A stretch of DNA of 64,000 bases from Elusimicrobiota bacterium. GTDB lineage: Bacteria > Elusimicrobiota > Elusimicrobia > UBA1565 > UBA9628. The DNA lies in assembly GCA_023213235.1 (NCBI GenBank), contig CP096137.1:507587-571586 (forward strand), given 5' to 3'. A model generated the notes under the pieces. The model worked only from the letters and a program-made list of their open reading frames with translations, was not told the DNA's origin and searched no databases. A program made the position numbers and the translations under genes. This document shows positions 1,952 to 12,208 of this stretch, piece after piece (the first letter of the stretch is position 1; every line of letters begins with the position of its first letter).

Positions 1952-4900
1952 ATGCAGGCCGCAGTCCTCTTGTTGGCGTTGAGCGCCGCCGCCGCGGTGC
2001 CGGAGCCGGTCCCGGTCCAGGCCGCGACCCCGGCCCCCGCCGCGTCGTACGCCCCGAACGTCACGCCCGAGCTGCTCGCGCGCTGGAGCGTGCCGCTCGA
2101 CGCGTACATGGCGATGACGCCCGAGCGAAAGGCGCAGCTGCGCGACGACCTCGCCGCCGGCGAGCGCGTCCGGACGCGCCGCGTCGAGCTGATCCGGCGC
2201 CTGCGCCCGCAGGAGTGGGCCGGCTTCGTGGACGCGAAGGGCTTCCTGACGCCCGACGGCGCGCGCATCGTCGAGGACTACGAGACCAAGCTCAAGGCCG
2301 CCGGGCTCGCCGTGCCCGTCGGGGTGACGATCGAGCGCGCCGACGGCAAGGAGATGACGGCCGAGGACTTCACGCGCGCGCGCGCCGTCCTCGACGGCGT
2401 TTTCGACGGGACCGCGCGCCTCGGAGAAGGGGCAAGGCCAAGGCCGGCGACGAGCTCGTCGTCGACGCGCGCGTGCGCAACGAAACGGTGCGCTCGCTGA
2501 CGATCAGCAACCCCAAGCGCGGCCTCAGCCTCGAGATCGGGCAGCTCGGCATCGACGGCCGCACGAACCTGATCGCGCCGAGCCCGTACGCGAACCTGGC
2601 GAAGTCCTGGGAAAGCAAGCCCGAGTCCTGGGTGGACTACCGCGTCAAGGCGCAGGTCGCGTACGTGGACATGAAGGCGCGCTTCTTCAACGACGGGCCC
2701 GACCCGCGCGTCGGCCGCATGATGGACCTCGCGCAGTCGCTCGGCGTGCCCCAGCGCGACATGGATCAGATCCGGCAGAGCCTCGCCTACGACGACGCGT
2801 ACCGGGCGCAGGGCCTCGTGATCTCGAGCCTCATGGCGCAGATGGGGCGGGCCTATCACCTCGGCGGCCCGGTCGACGTCGCGTGGAGCGTCACGAGCCT
2901 CACGAAGCTGATGCACCTCGCGCCGAACCAGGCGTTCGACGAGTCGATCGGCTTCCGCATCCGCCTTCCCGGCGACGAGCTGTTCCTCGGCGTCTTCGGC
3001 GGCGTCATGCAGAACATCTCGCCCGTCAGCAACCGCGTCTATCAGGAGCTGATGAGCAACGGACGCGTGGAGGCGGGGCTGAACTTGGAGCAGGCCCCGC
3101 ATTGGACGACGGCGCTGTGGGGCCGCGTGCCCGGGATGGACGACGCGAACTTCAGCGTCTCGGTCGGCCAGCGCTACAACAAGGACACGACGGTCTCCCA
3201 GGGCGAGGCCGCGCTCATGACGAGCTTCAAGCGCGTGCCCGTGGCCGTTCGCGCCTCGCTGAGCCGCGAGACCGGCGACGCCGTCGAGTTCGACCGGCAG
3301 AAGGCCCGCCTGCAGGTCGACGCGCAGCTCTCCGACCGGACGAACGCCTACCTCGCCTACGAGCGCGACAGGATCCGCTACGGCAACGCCGAGCTGAACT
3401 CGAACGCGGTCGTCGCGGGCCTGACGATCAGCCTCGACGGCAAGCGCGGCGGGGACCGGCTCACGGTCGACCACCTCTTCGGCGGGCAGTACGAGGCCAA
3501 CGCCTCGCCGCTGCGCCCGTTCCTGCCGGAGGCGACGAAGGTCGTCACGGGCGCGATCGCCGACGGCCTCGAGGCCGCGGAGCGCGCGGCCGACCTCTCG
3601 CGCCTCGTCGGCTCGGGCGCCAGCGCCGCGCAGATCGACGCGGGCCTCGACCGCCTGTCGCTCGCGCTCTCGCGCCTCGGCCCCGAGGCGTCGGTCGCGC
3701 TGATCGACCGGATGAGCGCGCTGCCGCTGTCCGACGACCAGAAGCGCCTGCTCGCCGACGCGCTGACGCGCGTGACGACGCCCGGCTCCGAGGCCGAGCA
3801 GCGCGTGCGCCGGGCGTTGACCGCGCTCGGGCCGGCCGTCGACGCCTACATCGCGCGCGCGGGGCCGCCCGCGCCGACCTGCTCGCCCGCATCCAGGGCG
3901 ACGCCGGGCGCGCCCTCGAACTGCTGCGGCTGCTCTCCGACCAGGAATCGTGGAACGCGGTCGCGATCGCGGCCGGCCGGCAGAGCCTGCTGCGCTCGCT
4001 CGCCAAGGCGCAGGTCATCGACATCCCGGTGCTCGACTCGCAGATCAAGTTCCACACGCACGCGCCCGTCCTGATCGCGGCGGCCGGCGCGCTCAACAGC
4101 CGCCTCTCGCCGCTGGCCCCCGTGCGCGCCGGCGAGGCGGAGCCGTGGCTGCTGCGCATGGCCGGCGACGAGCTCGGCCTGCCGCCGGGGCCCGTGACGT
4201 CGGAGATGGTCGCGGGCCGCCTCATCCAGATGGGCCAGGACCGGCTCATGAGCGAGCTCGACTCGCGCCTGGCGCCGGCGATCGACCGGCTCGTGGCCTC
4301 GGGCTCCTACGACCGCGGCCAGATCACGTCCTCGATCTTCGGCGCCCTTCCGCCCACGGCGGCGGCCGCCCTGCGCGCGCGCTTCGGCGACAATCTCGAG
4401 GGCCTGCTGCCGCCCGCGGGCGCGACGGCCGAGCAGATGCGCGCGTTCCTGCGCGACCGCCTCGGCGCCGAGCTCTCGCGCGCGCTCGGCGACGAGTTCC
4501 GCGGCGCGGCCGCGCGCGCCGTGGCCGAGATGACGTCCTGGGCCGCCGACCTCATCCGCCGCGAGATGAACCTCGCGACGATCCACCTGATGCTCGCCGC
4601 CGAGGAGCTCGACCGCCTGACCGTCGACAGGGGCCGCAAGGCCTCCGATATCGGCGTCGAGATGATGTCCCGCTCCTTCCGCATGCTCGACGAGCGCAAG
4701 CGCGGCAGGATGAGCGACGCGGTGCGCGGCGCGAAGGCCGCGGCGATGGAGAACTTCGCCGAGGGCGAACGCGCGCTCGCCGCGCGCTTCGTCTCGCTCG
4801 GCCGCGAGAGGCTCTCGGAGATGACGCTCGACCCGTCGTGGCCGCAGGGCTTCACCGTCGCCGTCGCCGACGAGTCCTGGCCGGGGCTCCTCGGCGCCTA

Positions 4901-5135
4901 CGGCGACGGCGCGTTCTTCGACCTCGTGCGCCGCATGGCCGACAAGCGCCGCGCGACGGGCAAGACCGCGCCCATGAAGCTCACCTTCGAACTCGATTCC
5001 GGCTCCGGTCGCGCGCTCGGCGGCACGTCGATCTGGAACGAGAAGAACGGCGACCTGAAGATCGTCCTCTCGCCCCCGAAGGACCAGCGCCAGGCGGATT
5101 TCCGCCTGCGCGGCCTCGAGAGCTACCTTAAGTAG
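1952..5135 (+). CDS. Large secreted protein of unknown function (~1060 residues), two apparent frameshifts
   Basis: I do not recognise a family. The start is ATG 1952, six bases after a perfect TATAAT (1940-1945). A signal peptide (MQAAVLLLALSAAAAV) is followed by a helical region. At roughly residues 370-510 there are alternating polar/hydrophobic strands (for example VAVRASLSRETGD, TNAYLAYERDRIRYGN) that look like beta-barrel strands. The second half is long, helical and rich in arginine and acidic residues. The frame changes at G runs 2429-2432 and 3861-3864; one added G at each gives a continuous protein to the TAG at 5133-5135. The FecR gene just upstream may be a partner. An outer-membrane location is inference. 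Confidence 0.7.
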
Positions 5136-5210: not shown

Positions 5211-5708
5211 ATGTACCGTCCGAAGACCGTCATTCCGCCGGCCCGCGCGACGCGCGAGCCCGTCGTGAAGACCGGCCTCGACTGGTCCGCCGCCGGCTGG
5301 GCGGGACTCGTCGCCGGCGCGGTATTCCTCGCCCTGCAGACCGCGCTGTCGGGGCACGGATTCCGCCTCATTGCCTCGGTCGCCCTCGGCGGGTCGGTGA
5401 TGGCCGAGAGCGCCGGGTTCAGCGCCGTCGTCGTGCTCGCCGCCGCGGCCGTGCATATTCCGCTGTCGCTGATCTACGCGCGCGTCATCGCGATCATCGT
5501 CGACGGGCGCCCGCAGGGCTTTGCGGCCGCGGCGGGAGCGGTCATGGGCTGCGCGCTGTACGGCTTGAACTTCTACGCTTTCGCGAACTTCTTTCCATGG
5601 GTCGCCGCGGCGCGCGGGCCGGGGAGCCTGGCCGCGCATGCGGCCTTCGGCGCGATCTCGGGAGGACTTTACGCGAGGCTGGCTCGGCGCCCTAGCGAGG
5701 AGCGTTGA
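5211..5708 (+). CDS. Hypothetical membrane protein, four helices
   Basis: The 165-residue protein has a polar N-terminus of about 28 residues, then four hydrophobic segments (about 30-48, 58-92, 105-125 and 138-155). GGAGG sits eight bases before ATG. No family is recognised. The 3' end overlaps the convergent gene 5692-6150 by 17 bases, which supports genuine but compact gene ends. Glycine-rich helices such as GWAGLVAGAVFLAL hint at a small transporter-like or structural membrane protein; nothing more can be said. Confidence 0.7.
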   Translation: MYRPKTVIPPARATREPVVKTGLDWSAAGWAGLVAGAVFLALQTALSGHGFRLIASVALGGSVMAESAGFSAVVVLAAAAVHIPLSLIYARVIAIIVDGRPQGFAAAAGAVMGCALYGLNFYAFANFFPWVAAARGPGSLAAHAAFGAISGGLYARLARRPSEER

Positions 5709-6150
5709 CTGAAGCGTGCCGCCGGCCAGGCTCGGCGCGAGGAGTACCTGAAGCGGCCGCGGAAGTCCTCTCCGCGATCGCGCCCAGGAATAACGAAAGC
5801 ACGCCTCCGAAGAATGCACCCGTCAAGCCGACCCCGATTCGCCTCACGAGGAAAGCCGGCTCCTCGAATTGCAGGGCGACGGCCACGTAGAGCAGGCTCG
5901 ACAAGACGCCGATCTTGAGAGCGGATCTGGCGGCGAAATCCCACTTCTCCGCCGCGAGACGCTCATTCGCGCGGGCGGCGCTCAATTCCGCGGGCGAGAA
6001 CCGAGCGACAACAATCAGGACTGTTCCGCCGACCACGATAGCCAGCGCGTCCCAAGCGAAGAACGGGCCAAGCCCGCGAGTCCCGGCGCCGAGAACGGCC
6101 TCTACGGCGAAGACCGCGAGAAACGCCCCAAAGCAGAGATAAGCGCGCAT
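5692..6150 (-). CDS. Small membrane protein, possibly MotA/TolQ-like fragment
   Basis: The 152-residue product has three to four hydrophobic segments. The block WDALAIVVGGTVLIVVA resembles the first helix region of MotA, and VGLTGAFFGGVLSLFLGAI resembles the later MotA/TolQ channel helix, but the cytoplasmic domain of MotA is missing. The likeness is weak and may only reflect helix composition. It has its own excellent promoter (6157-6185) and an ATG six bases after the -10 box, so it is not simply read through from the RiPP-like genes upstream. The C-terminus is basic. Confidence 0.6.
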   Translation of the reverse strand: MRAYLCFGAFLAVFAVEAVLGAGTRGLGPFFAWDALAIVVGGTVLIVVARFSPAELSAARANERLAAEKWDFAARSALKIGVLSSLLYVAVALQFEEPAFLVRRIGVGLTGAFFGGVLSLFLGAIAERTSAAASGTPRAEPGRRHASVNAPR

Positions 6151-6156
6151 GGCCGA

Positions 6157-6185
6157 AGTATAACCCCGCCGCCGCCCAGTGTCAA
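6157..6185 (-). promoter_or_regulatory. Consensus promoter, leaderless, for the MotA-like membrane protein
   Basis: Minus strand: TTGACA (6180-6185), 17-base spacer, TATACT (6157-6162), then six bases to ATG at 6150. The expected transcription start falls on or next to the start codon, so the mRNA should be leaderless. Confidence 0.75.
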
Positions 6186-6194
6186 CGGAGGGCG

Positions 6195-6656
6195 CTATTT
6201 GTCGGCAGTATGGCTGTCGCCCTTATCGGTCATGTTGGAGCCGTAGCTGCCCCAGTTCCCGGTGTTGAAGTCGTCGAAGCAGTGAGCCTTGTCCGCACGC
6301 GATTTGAGGTCCCCATCCTCCAACTCGGCGAAGCATCCGGCCTTGGCGACCGCCCGGAGGCGAGGGATCATCAGATGGATCACCCCGTCGTTGTTGTCGA
6401 CGACCTTGATCTTCAACTGGCCGAGGCTAATTCCGCTCTCCTTGAGTACGGCCGCAGTGTCGGTTTGCAGGCGCACTTTGAACTTCGGATCTATGAGAGC
6501 CCTTTTCACGACGGACGCGAACTCGTCCTTGTGCAGGCCGAGACGATCGTCTTGAAGGCACCAAAAAGCCATATAGGCTTTGCCAGGGCTAAGTCCTTCG
6601 GGCATGCGCAGCGCGCCGATGTCCACGGACTTCTTTCCCGCTTTTTTCTTGCTCAT
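6195..6656 (-). CDS. Candidate RiPP precursor with nitrile-hydratase-like leader (NHLP)
   Basis: The 153-residue protein has a basic N-terminus and then a stretch at about residues 44-98 that matches the NHLP leader pattern: FASVVKRALIDPKFKVRL, then TDTAAVLKESGISL, then a strand region ending in VIHLMIP. In NHLP (proteusin-type) precursors this leader recruits modifying enzymes. The 55-residue tail that follows is unlike nitrile hydratase: it has two cysteines and a C-terminal part rich in Asp, Asn, Gly, Ser and Thr (FDDFNTGNWGSYGSN). No GG cleavage site is obvious. The gene lies 11 bases after a JmjC-type oxygenase gene and has a strong GGAGGAG site. Precursor status is inference from leader plus neighbour. 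Confidence 0.7.
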   Translation of the reverse strand: MSKKKAGKKSVDIGALRMPEGLSPGKAYMAFWCLQDDRLGLHKDEFASVVKRALIDPKFKVRLQTDTAAVLKESGISLGQLKIKVVDNNDGVIHLMIPRLRAVAKAGCFAELEDGDLKSRADKAHCFDDFNTGNWGSYGSNMTDKGDSHTADK

Positions 6657-6667
6657 CTTCGCTCCTC

Positions 6668-7826
6668 CTACGGCTTAAGCAGTCCTTCCCGGATCAGCCT
6701 TTTCACGAGGGTCAATTTGGCCGCGCCGGACATCCCGCGCGGGAGCTGCTTCGCCGAGAAGCGGGGCGTGCGGGCAACGAATTTCAAAGCCGGCCATATC
6801 CGAGTCGGTCCCGAGAGTGAGTTGCCCGAAAAATCGATGGTTGCACGCCCGTTCTTCATTGACACGAGCGGCAGGGGCCCGGGCCGCACGCTCACGCGGG
6901 TGTCGAGCGTCACGCTTTCCGCGCGGGCCACGGCTGAGAAGTGTCCGTCGAGCAGGGGACTTCCCGTCTCCAGCATCCGGCGGCGTAGACGCAGCAACGC
7001 CTCGCGCACTGGAAGGGGGTTTTCAGCGCGCGCAGCGCCGCAGCCCCGTCGCTGCGCGCTGGCCGCATTCCGCGGGGAGGCACGGCCTTGCGGAAGGCGA
7101 CGTTCGTCTCGGCGATGATGGACAGGGCTTCTTGAAAGACGTCCATCCATTTGACGGCGTGTATCCCGATGGTCAAGTGCAGCGAAGGACCGTCTGCGGC
7201 CCGCGCCTCATGGATGTGACCGCGGGGAACGTAAAGTAAATCTCCGGCTTTAAGAACGGCTATCAACGACGGCCGCCCTAGCCCTGCCGGATCGACGTCG
7301 TAGCGTTGGCTTTGCAGCGGCAACGCCAGGCGCGGAGGGTAAACCCTCCAGGATTTCGTGCCGGCGAGTTGGAGAACGAAGACGTCGTGATCGTCGAAGT
7401 GAGGAAGGAATCCTCCCGAGCCGGGGGCGTGAAGTATGCGTTGGCCCCGATGCGATGATCGAGGTCGCGCTCAAGCGTCCGGCACAGAGACGACACCGGC
7501 CCCCATCGCTGGTCGATCGCGTTGACAATGAGCGTGTGCCCGTCCGCGAACAGGCGGTAAAGCGCGTGGATGTCGGGATAGCCGCTCGGAGTCAGCGGCG
7601 GCACTGTCGTCGTCAAGCGGTCCCCTTGGCGCTTGACGATCCTCAGCATGGCCGTTACGTCCGCGTGCCGGGCCTGGCGTATGGCTGCGTCAAGATCGGA
7701 CTCGGCGAAGAGCCCCGCATAGACGGCCGCCCGTCGCCGGATGAGCAGGGGCTTGCGCTCCCAATTTCGCGACATGAAGTCCCGCGTTCGTATGGGCTTC
7801 AGCAGCGCGTCCAATCCCCAGTCCAC
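6668..7826 (-). CDS. JmjC/cupin_4 Fe(II) oxygenase, two apparent frameshifts
   Basis: When one base is restored in each of the G runs 7423-7427 and 7015-7019, this is a 386-residue protein of the bacterial ROXA/MINA53-like JmjC group (2-oxoglutarate hydroxylases acting on proteins). The N-terminus MSRNWERKPLLIRR is typical. The metal triad is seen as His143 and Asp145 in LPHFDDHD, and His206 in VPRGHIHEA; SLHLTIGI follows as expected. The C-terminus (about 310-386) looks like the winged-helix domain of ROXA-type enzymes, ending in LVKRLIREGLLKP. GTG start, six bases after TATTAT (7833-7838). It is the first gene of a two-gene unit with the NHLP-type peptide, its likely substrate. Base composition is visibly less GC-rich than the flanks. 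Confidence 0.82.
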
Positions 7827-7832
7827 GGGCAG

Positions 7833-7838
7833 ATAATA
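7833..7838 (-). promoter_or_regulatory. -10 element of the oxygenase/peptide unit
   Basis: TATTAT lies six bases before the GTG start at 7826 in the 59-base gap to the next gene. No good -35 box is seen. The arrangement matches the leaderless pattern found elsewhere in this window. Confidence 0.55.
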
Positions 7839-7885
7839 ACAGAAACGCGCGAAGCCGGATCAGACGCCCGAGGACGAATAAACGT

Positions 7886-10800
7886 TCAGCGCAGCTGCGC
7901 GTCGAGCCAGAGCACGAGGGCGATCGCGGCGATGAGGCCGCCGAGCGCCAGCGCGGCGAGCATCCCCGCGCCCGCGACGGCGGCGACGAGCAGAAGGCCC
8001 GTGAGGCCGAACGGCGCCCACGAGGTCATCGCCATGAGGCCCAAGCCGAGGACGGCGCCGGCGATGCCCCAGATGAAGAACGACCCGGCGGCCTTCTTCG
8101 AGGAGCGCCACGTCGAGTTCCAGCGGCGGCCCGCCTCGCGGTCGGCGACGGGCTCGGGAATCGGCGCGCCGCTCTTGGCGGTCTTGTAGGCCACGCCGAC
8201 GCTGCGGAAGTACCCGACCCAGCCGGCGATCGTGCCCGCGATGGCCGCGGCGAACGTCGCCGGGAAGATGTTGGCCATGCGGATCCAGCCGTCGGAGAGC
8301 GCGGCCTTCCCCTCGGGGAACTGGAAGCGGTCCGTCAGCGAGTTGAGGCGCTGGAGCTCGGCGCGCAGCGAGCCGTACGTCCAGTGGTCGAAGAACTTGC
8401 CGGCCGGCCCGCCGATCTCGGCGAAGCGGAAGGCGAAGGAGACCATCGCGGTCAGCGCGTACGGAGCCGCCGCGATCACGCCGGCGACGATGCCGACGAG
8501 GCCGAAGGCGACGCCGAGCGCGAACGCGACGAGCTTCAGGAAGACGTTCCCCAGGAAGCCGAGCGCGCCCTTGTACTCGAAGTCGTCGGCGACGACGTGC
8601 TTGAAGTACGGGCGGCCGAGCAGCAGCGCGCCGAACGCGGCCGAGCCGAGCACGCCGGAGACGGCGCCGGCGACGAGGCCGAAGAGGAAGGGGAAGATGC
8701 GCCGCGCGATCTTGGCGGCCGTTTCCCACGCCCAGCGCAGGAACGGGAGAATCTCGCGGACGACCTGGTCGGCGCCGCGATACGCGGCGACGGAGCCGGC
8801 CTGCAGGACGCCGAAGGCGACGCCGGCCGTTCCGAGCGCGAGGCCCGAGAGGAAGCCGGGGAGCGCGTAGAGCTTGGCGAGGCCGACGGCCTTGCCGGAG
8901 GCGATCCAGTAGTTCAGCGAGCGTCCCCAGCCGGCCTTCGCCGCGTCGGCGGCGTTCGGGATCAGGCGCGTCCACAGCGCGGGCTGAGAGACGGCCAGCG
9001 CGACGCCCGTCGACGCGACGGGCACGCCGACGTAGGCCGCGGCGCCCAGCGCCCACAGCTTCCAGCCGGCGAGGCCGGCGAGCCAGCCCGGCGCGAACGC
9101 GATCGCCGCGACGACGCCGGCGCCGAGGCCGAGCGCGCCGAGGACGGCGGAGATCACGACCTTGCCGTTCGGAAGCGGAGCGTCAGCCGCCGGCTCGACG
9201 ACGGGAGCTTCCTCGGACGACGGCCGAGCCGCCTGTTCGGGGGATTTTTCGAGCTTCGCGTCCTGGAGCGAGGCGAGATACGCCTTGCCGCCCGCGACGG
9301 TCAGCGCGAGCGCGGTCGGGATCGAGGCGAGCGCCCAGCTCGCGGCGCGGACGTAGACGCGCCAGACCGGCAGCTCGCGGCCCTCTCCGGAGAGCGAGAT
9401 CTCGGCGACGGAACGGGCCTCGCGCAGAGCCTGCGGGAGCGAGCGGCGCTCCCACGTGCGGTAGTAGTCCTCGCGCGACGTGCCGGCCCACTTGCTGCCG
9501 AGGGCGACGCCGTGCGTGAGCGCGACGGGCAGGCCGAGGACCGCGCCGAGCGCGAGGCCGCCGACGAAGATCGCCGCGGCGGGAACGAGCAAGGTCAAGC
9601 CGAGGGCGACGCCGGCGGTGATCTGCCACTCGCCGGGCTTGGAGCGCAGGCCGTCCTCGCGCTCGAAGATCGCGCCGACGGGGCGGAACAGGTTCGACGC
9701 GAGCCACCACGCGGACTTGAACACGCCGCCGATCGTGCCGAACACGAAGCCGAAGAAGAACGGGACGATGTCCTTGAGCACCTCGACGAGCCGGTTCAGG
9801 AAGCGCTTGAGCGCCGGGAGGAACTGCGTGATCACGGCCATGAAGCCGGTCCACGAGGCGGCGACGGCGCGGCCCGCGACGACGAGCACGTCGGCGACGA
9901 AGGCCGACAGGACCGCGGAGACGCCGCCGGCGACGGCCGGAAGCGCGAGGAAGAACTTGTTCTCGGAGGCGCGAGGCGCGGACTCGCCGCGCAGCGCGGC
10001 CGCGACGCGGGCCCCGGCGTCCATCCACCCGCCCCACGACTGCGTCGCGCCGAGAGAACCCTGAGCGAGCACGGCGTCCGCCGTGCCCTTCCACGCCTGC
10101 GGCTGCGAGAGCGCGAGGCCCGAGGCCGCGCCGACGGCGGCGGCCGCGGCGAGCAGGCCGATGTTCGCGAGCGTCAGCGGCAGGATCAGCAGGTAGCCGA
10201 CCGCGCCCGCGGCGACGGCCGCGCCGATGACGGCCAGCGTCGCGGGGAGCGCGATGCCGTCGCGCGGCTCGACCTTCGCCTCCGCGCCCTCTTCGTCCGC
10301 GCGGTTCGGGCCGGAGTCGCCCGACTGGGCGTCCGTTCCCTTATAAGCGGAGACCGACGCGCGCCAGAACGTGGCGATCGAGAGGAACGGGAGCGCGAGC
10401 GCGCCGTACGCGGCGATCGCGACGCCGTTGAGGACGCGGACGGTCCGCGCGGCCAGCGAGAGGCTCTTCTCGGCGGCGGGGAAGCGGCGGCCGATCAGGA
10501 CGTCGAAGGCGCCGTCCTTCTCGACGGAGCGCGTCCAGCGATTGAAAAAGGTCTCGGCCTTCGGGGAGAAGCGGCCCCACTTGAACGCCTGGCCGAGCGC
10601 GAACATCAGCGCGTGCAGCGGGCCGACGACGAGGCCGATCGCGGCGCCGAGCGCGCCGGTGACGAGGATCGCGGCGAGCGCGGCGAGCTGGGTCAGGCGG
10701 TAGCCGATCCAGCCGGGCACGGACGCGGGCTTATAAGACGAATAGAAGGCGTCGTGGGCGATCGGAGCGGCGAGCAGCGCGGCGCCGGCGGCGGCCGAGA

Positions 10801-12088
10801 AGAACACGCCCTTGACCGCGCCCCAGATCAGGCCGCCGAAGAAGGGGAAGATGCGGACGATGAAGCGGCCGACGAAGTCGATGACCTGCTTCATCCACGG
10901 CAGGAAGCCGACGATCACGTCGCGCAGGCCGCGTAACGCCGCGAGGAACGGCGTGCCGACGAGGCGGTAGGCCGCTCCGAGCACGAAGGCGACGGGCGCC
11001 ATCACGTAGCCGGCGAGGACGAACAGCCAGGCGATGACGGGGTACTTGAAGAGGTTGGCCGAGAGCTCCTGCTTCATCGCGCCGTCGGCGGACTTGCCGC
11101 GGAGGACGGAGTCGAAGATCAGGCCGAAGCGGCCCCAGAACTTGAACGTCATCGCGCCGGCGGTGAGCGAGGAGTCCTTGAGGTCCGCGGGGAAACCCTT
11201 CCACGTCTCGACGGAGAACGCGGCGAAGCCGGCGAGGGCGCCGAGAGCGACCCATCCGATCGTGAAAGCCAGGGCGGGAATAGCGATGTAAGACGCGATA
11301 AGGCCGTTTATCAACACGGCGGCGGCAGCCGACGTGTACCAGGCGGCGGCGCCGCCGGCGATCGCGAGGGTGAGGCCGATGGCGACGCGGGGCTTACGGG
11401 CCTTGGGCGCCTCGGGGGCGGACGGCGGAACGGGAAGTTCATCGGAGGAGGAGGGGGCGGGCGTCAGAGCGGGAGTCAGGGCGGAGGGGCGGGAATCATT
11501 AACGGAAGCAGCGGCCATGACGGGCGACTCGAGATTGCCATTAATAAAGGAACCGTCGAAAAAGCGATTGAGGGTTCCCATCAGCGCCGAAGGCGCGGCG
11601 TTCGGCGTTTTGGCCGTCGGAACGGCGACCAATCCGTTCGCGCCGTTGGTCAAAGACGCGACGGCGGAGATCTCCACGGAACGAGTCCCGCTGTTCTGGT
11701 CGGCGGCGGCGACAACGGCGACGGACTTCGCCGCGGCAGGCAAGGCAGACGGTCGGAACGACAACGGAACGGAATGGGCGGGTACGTGGGGGACGGCAAC
11801 GGCGTTATTTTTCACGGCAACGGAATGGGTGACCGGCGTGGGAACCAGTCCGGGGACGGCCAAAGACGGAGCGAGGCCGAGGGTATTGGACGGATTAACA
11901 ATGTTTATCGGCGACGGCAAATCGATCCTCATCGACAACGGAGTGACCACCGGATTCCCATTGGAAGCCGTTCCCGCGTTCGCGCCGCGCGTTTGCGCCA
12001 GCACCTCGTACACGCCCAGGCCGGGGGCGGTGTGAACGAGGGCGAGCGAGATAAACGACGCGATGAAACGGCGGAAATTGAAGTTCAT
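7886..12088 (-). CDS. Giant polytopic membrane protein with three ~358-residue modules
   Basis: About 1400 residues, of unknown function. I chose ATG 12086-12088 because it begins a signal-like sequence (FNFRRFIASFISLALVH) eight bases after TAGAAT. Residues up to about 230 are Ser/Thr/Ala/Pro-rich and extracytoplasmic in type. The rest is three tandem modules, each with several long Ala/Gly/Val helices around the marker FLPWMKQV, FLPALKRF or ILPFLRWA at about residues 396, 755 and 1112. Each marker is followed by an FPFFFG-like turn and a helix pair. Linkers between modules are acidic (GDSGPNRADEEG, EEAPVVEPAAD). The modules have diverged and no catalytic motif is visible. A transport, scaffold or envelope role is possible. 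Confidence 0.8.
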   Translation of the reverse strand: MNFNFRRFIASFISLALVHTAPGLGVYEVLAQTRGANAGTASNGNPVVTPLSMRIDLPSPINIVNPSNTLGLAPSLAVPGLVPTPVTHSVAVKNNAVAVPHVPAHSVPLSFRPSALPAAAKSVAVVAAADQNSGTRSVEISAVASLTNGANGLVAVPTAKTPNAAPSALMGTLNRFFDGSFINGNLESPVMAAASVNDSRPSALTPALTPAPSSSDELPVPPSAPEAPKARKPRVAIGLTLAIAGGAAAWYTSAAAAVLINGLIASYIAIPALAFTIGWVALGALAGFAAFSVETWKGFPADLKDSSLTAGAMTFKFWGRFGLIFDSVLRGKSADGAMKQELSANLFKYPVIAWLFVLAGYVMAPVAFVLGAAYRLVGTPFLAALRGLRDVIVGFLPWMKQVIDFVGRFIVRIFPFFGGLIWGAVKGVFFSAAAGAALLAAPIAHDAFYSSYKPASVPGWIGYRLTQLAALAAILVTGALGAAIGLVVGPLHALMFALGQAFKWGRFSPKAETFFNRWTRSVEKDGAFDVLIGRRFPAAEKSLSLAARTVRVLNGVAIAAYGALALPFLSIATFWRASVSAYKGTDAQSGDSGPNRADEEGAEAKVEPRDGIALPATLAVIGAAVAAGAVGYLLILPLTLANIGLLAAAAAVGAASGLALSQPQAWKGTADAVLAQGSLGATQSWGGWMDAGARVAAALRGESAPRASENKFFLALPAVAGGVSAVLSAFVADVLVVAGRAVAASWTGFMAVITQFLPALKRFLNRLVEVLKDIVPFFFGFVFGTIGGVFKSAWWLASNLFRPVGAIFEREDGLRSKPGEWQITAGVALGLTLLVPAAAIFVGGLALGAVLGLPVALTHGVALGSKWAGTSREDYYRTWERRSLPQALREARSVAEISLSGEGRELPVWRVYVRAASWALASIPTALALTVAGGKAYLASLQDAKLEKSPEQAARPSSEEAPVVEPAADAPLPNGKVVISAVLGALGLGAGVVAAIAFAPGWLAGLAGWKLWALGAAAYVGVPVASTGVALAVSQPALWTRLIPNAADAAKAGWGRSLNYWIASGKAVGLAKLYALPGFLSGLALGTAGVAFGVLQAGSVAAYRGADQVVREILPFLRWAWETAAKIARRIFPFLFGLVAGAVSGVLGSAAFGALLLGRPYFKHVVADDFEYKGALGFLGNVFLKLVAFALGVAFGLVGIVAGVIAAAPYALTAMVSFAFRFAEIGGPAGKFFDHWTYGSLRAELQRLNSLTDRFQFPEGKAALSDGWIRMANIFPATFAAAIAGTIAGWVGYFRSVGVAYKTAKSGAPIPEPVADREAGRRWNSTWRSSKKAAGSFFIWGIAGAVLGLGLMAMTSWAPFGLTGLLLVAAVAGAGMLAALALGGLIAAIALVLWLDAQLR

Positions 12089-12124
12089 GTGGAGAGATTC
12101 TACGCGCGAAGTTGTGTAATCCGT

Positions 12125-12208
12125 ACGGGTCCCCTGGCCCAAACACATGTTCGTTATTCGGCCCAAACATTTCTGGGACCCGTCCTAGGACCCTGGCACC
12201 CTGGACAG
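12125..12208. repeat. Repeat-rich intergenic segment before glutamine synthetase
   Basis: ACGGGTCCC (12125-12133) and GGGACCCGT (12175-12183) are perfect complements. Between them the motif GGCCCAAACA occurs twice in the same direction. CTAGGACCCTGGCACCCTGG follows, sharing the GGTGCCAG-type core of the element at 400-469. It may be a member of a dispersed family. No clear promoter for the downstream gene is seen in it. Confidence 0.5.

Follow-up and report, generated by a model that had tools for sequence, protein, structure and literature searches.

A JmjC-type oxygenase gene paired with an NHLP-like precursor gene in an Elusimicrobiota bacterium: a probable minimal leader-guided modification system

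The DNA stretch considered here, referred to as the window, comprises 64,000 nucleotides (positions 507,587 to 571,586 of contig CP096137.1, assembly GCA_023213235.1, Elusimicrobiota bacterium). It contains a gene for a JmjC-type oxygenase of the family PF08007 and, directly downstream, a gene for a protein of 153 amino acids resembling NHLP precursors (Table 1). Both had been recognised in a first-pass annotation made from the DNA alone, and the arrangement is as described there, since the second open reading frame begins 11 bases after the JmjC stop codon. It is preceded by a strong AGGAGGAG site. A promoter-like site lies ahead of the next gene, which suggests from sequence that the pair may represent its own transcription unit. 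The membrane gene that follows (152 amino acids, 5692-6150) was ruled out as a third member: besides its own promoter-like site it has no Pfam match and no blastp counterpart at the second locus described below. On the other side lies the gene for a repetitive membrane protein of 1426 amino acids (7886-12166, minus strand), whose end comes shortly before the start of the JmjC gene. Inspection by eye of the open reading frames in the window's first 16 kb revealed no epimerase, methyltransferase, YcaO, lanthipeptide enzyme or C39 transporter, and the sole C39 peptidase match of the genome is located at 1.22 Mb, about 0.7 Mb from the pair.

Table 1. Features of the gene pair in the window and of partner genes at related loci
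Feature	Position	Strand	Basis or remark
NHLP-like precursor, 153 aa	6195..6656, stop included	-	ORF, profile matches, structure match
NHLP-type leader region, ~residues 44-107	6336..6527	-	profile matches and predicted helices/strands; putative boundary
Putative core/tail, ~residues 108-153, Asp/Asn/Ser/Thr/Gly-rich, predicted disordered	6198..6335	-	putative boundary
AGGAGGAG ribosome-binding site of precursor gene	6662..6669	-	read from sequence; overlaps JmjC stop codon
Sigma-70-like promoter of next gene, TTGACA-17-TATACT, 11/12	6157..6185	-	consensus match only
JmjC_2 (PF08007) oxygenase gene, GTG start, three frames	6668..7826	-	PF08007 match, alignment
JmjC N-terminal fragment, first frame	7425..7826	-	sequence
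JmjC catalytic fragment, second frame; H143, D145, H206 and lysine aligned with L005 K162	7021..7422	-	alignment
C-terminal fragment of JmjC, third frame; putative winged helix (RRE-like)	6668..7018	-	sequence, model of a relative
First frameshift, one base missing by CCCCCGG run	7422..7430	-	sequence
Second frameshift, loss of one base within or beside AAAACCCCC run	7019..7030	-	sequence
Tat-signal-like TDSD-repeat protein of L028	L028:5438-5968		upstream of JmjC
Peptides ending SDGGGTGKSDGND	L107:2081-2224, L108:2048-2197, L109:2077-2226		upstream of JmjC and aldo/keto reductase

The JmjC gene of the window has no single open reading frame and is spread over three frames. It matches PF08007 with 85.5 bits in the genome scan (family threshold 22 bits). 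The HxD...H motif and the 2-oxoglutarate lysine are kept in all 29 aligned JmjC proteins, in the window enzyme only with its two frameshifts read through. This means that the residues His143, Asp145 and His206 had been assigned correctly, while the term “intact” does not hold for a gene with a twice broken frame. For structure prediction a planctomycete relative (L027, pLDDT 67) stood in for the frameshifted enzyme. The closest solved structures to this model are MINA53, NO66 and RoxA, and by this prediction the enzyme is one of the MINA53/NO66/RoxA fold, whose members hydroxylate protein side chains. At the C-terminus of the model predicted strands (residues 325-355) are followed by predicted helices (356-367 and 382-394); ROX enzymes are likewise known to carry a winged helix. 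The corresponding fragment of the window enzyme gave no Pfam match. With MINA53, NO66 and RoxA/YcfD, which modify ribosomal proteins, the enzyme shares the predicted fold, HxD...H, the 2-oxoglutarate lysine and the putative C-terminal winged helix, but those enzymes are not paired with leader peptides.

The 153-residue protein matches the NHLP model TIGR03793 over residues 47-117 with 29.4 bits in the protein search; the scan of the genome gave 30.6 bits, and both values lie under the cut-off of 50.9. Its further matches to PF02979 (nitrile hydratase alpha; residues 45-100, 25.6 bits, cut-off 27.2), TIGR04351 (26.6 bits) and NF038399 (24.6 bits) are also below the cut-offs, the last two below curated ones. 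These profile scores mark it as a remote NHLP relative. The model predicts helices at residues 43-55, 57-65 and 67-73 and strands at 84-87 and 93-96. Its top Foldseek match is a RiPP proteusin precursor solved by NMR (8tb1, E 0.02, probability 1.00), obtained with a model whose pLDDT is only 48, with leader helices at 70-80; the second match of the same low-confidence model is nitrile hydratase. The first-pass proposal of an NHLP-type leader is thus backed by the HMM search and by the structure match, albeit with scores below the cut-offs. A remnant of nitrile hydratase was ruled out, as the match to PF02979 spans only positions 40-96 of a 184-position profile and no Cys metal motif of the kind present in the alpha subunit was seen in the sequence. 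The leader ends in a degenerate AVAKAG where NHLP leaders normally show AVAGG, the precursor of the second locus has LKATG in this place, and a GG-type cleavage motif before the core is absent from both. As the first-pass annotation had stated, the tail is rich in Asp, Asn, Ser, Thr and Gly: these make up 44% of the last 55 residues versus 27 ± 6% in 55-residue windows of other nearby proteins. Asp plus Asn alone account for 20% versus 7 ± 4%, and none of the background windows reaches this value.

PF08007 genes and NHLP-like genes each occur twice in the genome, arranged as two adjacent JmjC-NHLP pairs of identical order that lie 2.8 Mb apart. At the second locus an open JmjC gene (404 amino acids, 97.1 bits against PF08007) is followed by an NHLP-like open reading frame with one frameshift, which scores 25.3-25.6 bits against TIGR03793 (cut-off 50.9, not reached). 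When both loci were compared by blastp the JmjC genes alone matched (40% identity in the tree alignment) and the flanking genes did not. By inference, the odds of two chance adjacencies within 3.8 Mb would be less than roughly one in a million. Recurrence, here and at the related loci described below, is the strongest evidence for a real pairing of JmjC and NHLP genes. A protein search of 341 genomes of the phylum revealed no relative of the enzyme outside this genome. The pair is also less GC-rich than its flanks, as had been noted before, with values of 0.576 (NHLP gene) and 0.648 (JmjC gene) in a window of 0.694, and it lies within the lowest 1.6% of same-size windows. The lack of relatives among the searched genomes of the phylum and the low GC of the pair would both fit acquisition by transfer. 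Another genome of the same class, G170, in which a protein search found no JmjC relative, encodes six tandem NHLP precursors of 65-86 bits (L006 and L022, G170:C12:380612-382743).

Outside the phylum a counterpart was found by genome-contig scan in a Planctomycetales MAG (L027), where 12 bp separate a JmjC gene with 41% identity from a downstream NHLP precursor that reaches 67.8 bits against TIGR03793, above the curated cut-off. The co-occurrence of NHLP and JmjC homologues implied by the first-pass annotation is therefore seen both within the genome and in this pair. The core of the L027 precursor is Cys/Gly-rich and not Asp-rich, therefore the choice of target may vary. Among 384 planctomycete genomes NHLP is present in 15 and PF08007 in 38, and both occur less than 1 kb apart in two, namely G341 (which holds L027) and G706. 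One contig of G706 carries NHLP precursors together with JmjC, an HlyD protein and LanM, and in both L027 and G706 the partners have the usual make-up of NHLP precursors, including a short core. In G360 the neighbours of the JmjC gene are an ABC transporter and a peptide that is DDGG-rich and has a leader-like end. The shorter PF08007 proteins L040-L042 have no precursor-like neighbour in the stretches examined, tblastn of the L027 precursor against plasmids gave no match, and the scan of viral contigs gave no relatives.

Further JmjC genes, whose neighbours were selected by eye and not by an unbiased survey, adjoin other small proteins. All seven best JmjC matches of an alphaproteobacterial order (L028, L095-L100) are directly preceded by a protein whose N-terminus is Tat-like and which carries TDSD-type repeats. 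Double-glycine peptides with Asn/Gly/Ser/Asp-rich ends lie alongside the JmjC genes of L101 and L104, a DP-rich peptide is found just upstream in a Streptomyces plasmid (L034), and peptides ending SDGGGTGKSDGND occupy this position in further Streptomyces plasmids (L107-L109). Many of these double-glycine, DP-rich and Tat-signal TDSD-repeat partners are Asp-rich. The repeats were assigned no function by Pfam, nor by NCBIfam where scanned, and the TDSD-type repeats fall in no known family. In the JmjC tree the two enzymes of this genome join (84/84) and most repeat-linked enzymes group; the NHLP-linked ones do not all fall in one clade. Since no single NHLP-linked clade exists, the tree makes partner swapping likely.

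Cupin-4 is the older name of PF08007. A 2022 study of sponge microbiomes noted four families of gene clusters that hold NHLP and cupin-4 (PMC9426513); like the window pair they combine an NHLP domain and a cupin-4 enzyme in one cluster, but they are known by annotation only, whereas the window pair is minimal, recurrent in one genome and compared across phyla. BipG and PbsQ are JmjC/cupin hydroxylases acting on ornithine in biphenomycin-type RiPPs (PMC12707348, PMC12257519); as Fe(II)/2-oxoglutarate hydroxylases of a RiPP core they resemble what is proposed for the window enzyme, and they differ by their ornithine target, by a multi-enzyme pathway and by a precursor that is not called NHLP in the passages considered. 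RRE-like domains fused to PF08007, and bacterial homologues in RiPP-like contexts, were described in 2025 (PMC12710340), and modifying enzymes bind the folded NHLP leaders through their RRE domains (PMC12455567). With proteusin/NHLP precursors of the polytheonamide, MprE or landornamide type (TIGR03793) the 153-residue protein has in common a predicted nitrile-hydratase-like helical leader followed by a tail predicted to be disordered, and they provide the best structure match of its model (pLDDT 48). It differs from them by sub-cut-off scores, the missing GG motif and the Asp-rich tail, and the window pair has no radical SAM, YcaO or LanM partner. No paper combining nitrile hydratase, leader peptide and JmjC was found in the openly accessible literature. 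Nevertheless, the first-pass statement that NHLP plus JmjC is “not described” is not supported as worded, since related cases are reported in PMC9426513, PMC12710340, PMC12707348 and PMC12257519. Novelty lies in the reduction to two genes and in the Asp-rich tail; enzymes of this type and peptides of this type had both been known before. The core idea of an NHLP leader peptide with a tailoring JmjC enzyme survived every test run, which “intact” and “not described” did not.

Quite probably the 153-residue protein is the substrate of the JmjC enzyme, and both genes probably constitute a minimal leader-guided RiPP-type modification system in which the enzyme hydroxylates the precursor tail. The leader, with its predicted nitrile-hydratase-like fold, would be bound by the Fe(II)/2-oxoglutarate oxygenase, probably via its putative C-terminal winged-helix (RRE-like) domain. 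The acidic disordered tail of about 46 residues would then be hydroxylated on side chains, with the beta-carbon of Asp or Asn as the foremost candidate, and leader removal and export of the product might follow. Asp/Asn as target, suggested by tail composition, is a possible rather than a probable choice. Gene adjacency, NHLP homology, conserved metal and 2-oxoglutarate residues and recurrence with precursor-like partners are direct observations. Our reading as a minimal RiPP system builds on the NHLP and nitrile hydratase alpha matches, the proteusin Foldseek match, the two pairs of the genome, the NHLP context of L027 and G706, the retained HxD...H and lysine, the Asp plus Asn content of the tail and the TDSD-repeat, double-glycine and DP-/SDGND-type peptides beside related JmjC genes. 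From the literature, RiPP hydroxylation by BipG/PbsQ and the engagement of RRE domains by NHLP leaders argue in the same direction. Counted against it are the TIGR03793 and PF02979 scores below the cut-offs, the breaks in the window JmjC gene (two) and in the precursor of the second copy (one), the Cys/Gly-rich core of L027 and the absence of the enzyme from the other genomes of the phylum (341 searched).

Also counted against it are the missing canonical GG site and the lack of a nearby protease, transporter or second enzyme, with C39 about 0.7 Mb away. The missing cleavage site and the lack of a protease and transporter would also suit a protein or adaptor that functions without processing and is hydroxylated in its entirety, like ankyrin or ribosomal proteins, and the alphaproteobacterial Tat-signal TDSD-repeat partners resemble whole secreted proteins and not short peptides. 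Yet the partners in L027 and G706 are typical precursors with short cores, and we consider this alternative unlikely, although it deserves attention.

A decaying, horizontally acquired pair that is now a pseudogene could be read from the three frameshifts at the two loci, the low GC and the degenerate GG site. However, each of the three shifts can be explained by the loss of one base, and two lie within or next to homopolymer runs; the triad is intact when read through, and the second JmjC gene is open. Both frameshifts of the window JmjC gene are probably assembly errors, because other genes of the window such as 1952-5135 are similarly broken and the one-contig genome has a completeness score of only 83.6%. 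Decay is therefore regarded as rather improbable. Frameshift-broken genes apparently lie at 481-1128 as well as at 1952-5135, and since both breaks in the latter fit single missing bases, homopolymer undercalls are suggested to be widespread in this assembly. Very improbable is an ordinary ribosomal oxygenase (a RoxA/YcfD-like arginyl or histidyl hydroxylase) standing by chance beside a small nitrile-hydratase-like protein, for despite MINA53, NO66 and RoxA being the closest solved structures, the two PF08007 genes of the genome each stand next to one of its two NHLP-like genes, the L027 gene likewise has an NHLP neighbour, and 340 further genomes of the phylum lack the enzyme, which would not be expected of a housekeeping modifier of ribosomes.

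With the minimal RiPP reading preferred, the pair provides a system of only two genes in which the action of JmjC oxygenases on ribosomal peptides can be tested directly. It would also connect peptide maturation in bacteria with ribosomal oxygenases of eukaryotic type, and it draws attention to Asp-rich cores. We tentatively propose a class extending across phyla, in which ROX-like JmjC oxygenases might act in the maturation of small, acidic proteins that are rich in Asp and Gly and carry exchangeable leaders (NHLP, double-glycine or Tat signal), and yield products rich in hydroxy-Asp; the window pair would be its minimal NHLP form. Speculatively, poly-hydroxy-Asp could bind metals or minerals.

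A PF08007-type cupin gene was also observed near YcaO and NRPS genes on a linear plasmid of Streptomyces sp. NBC_00158 (L092, 3956-7794).
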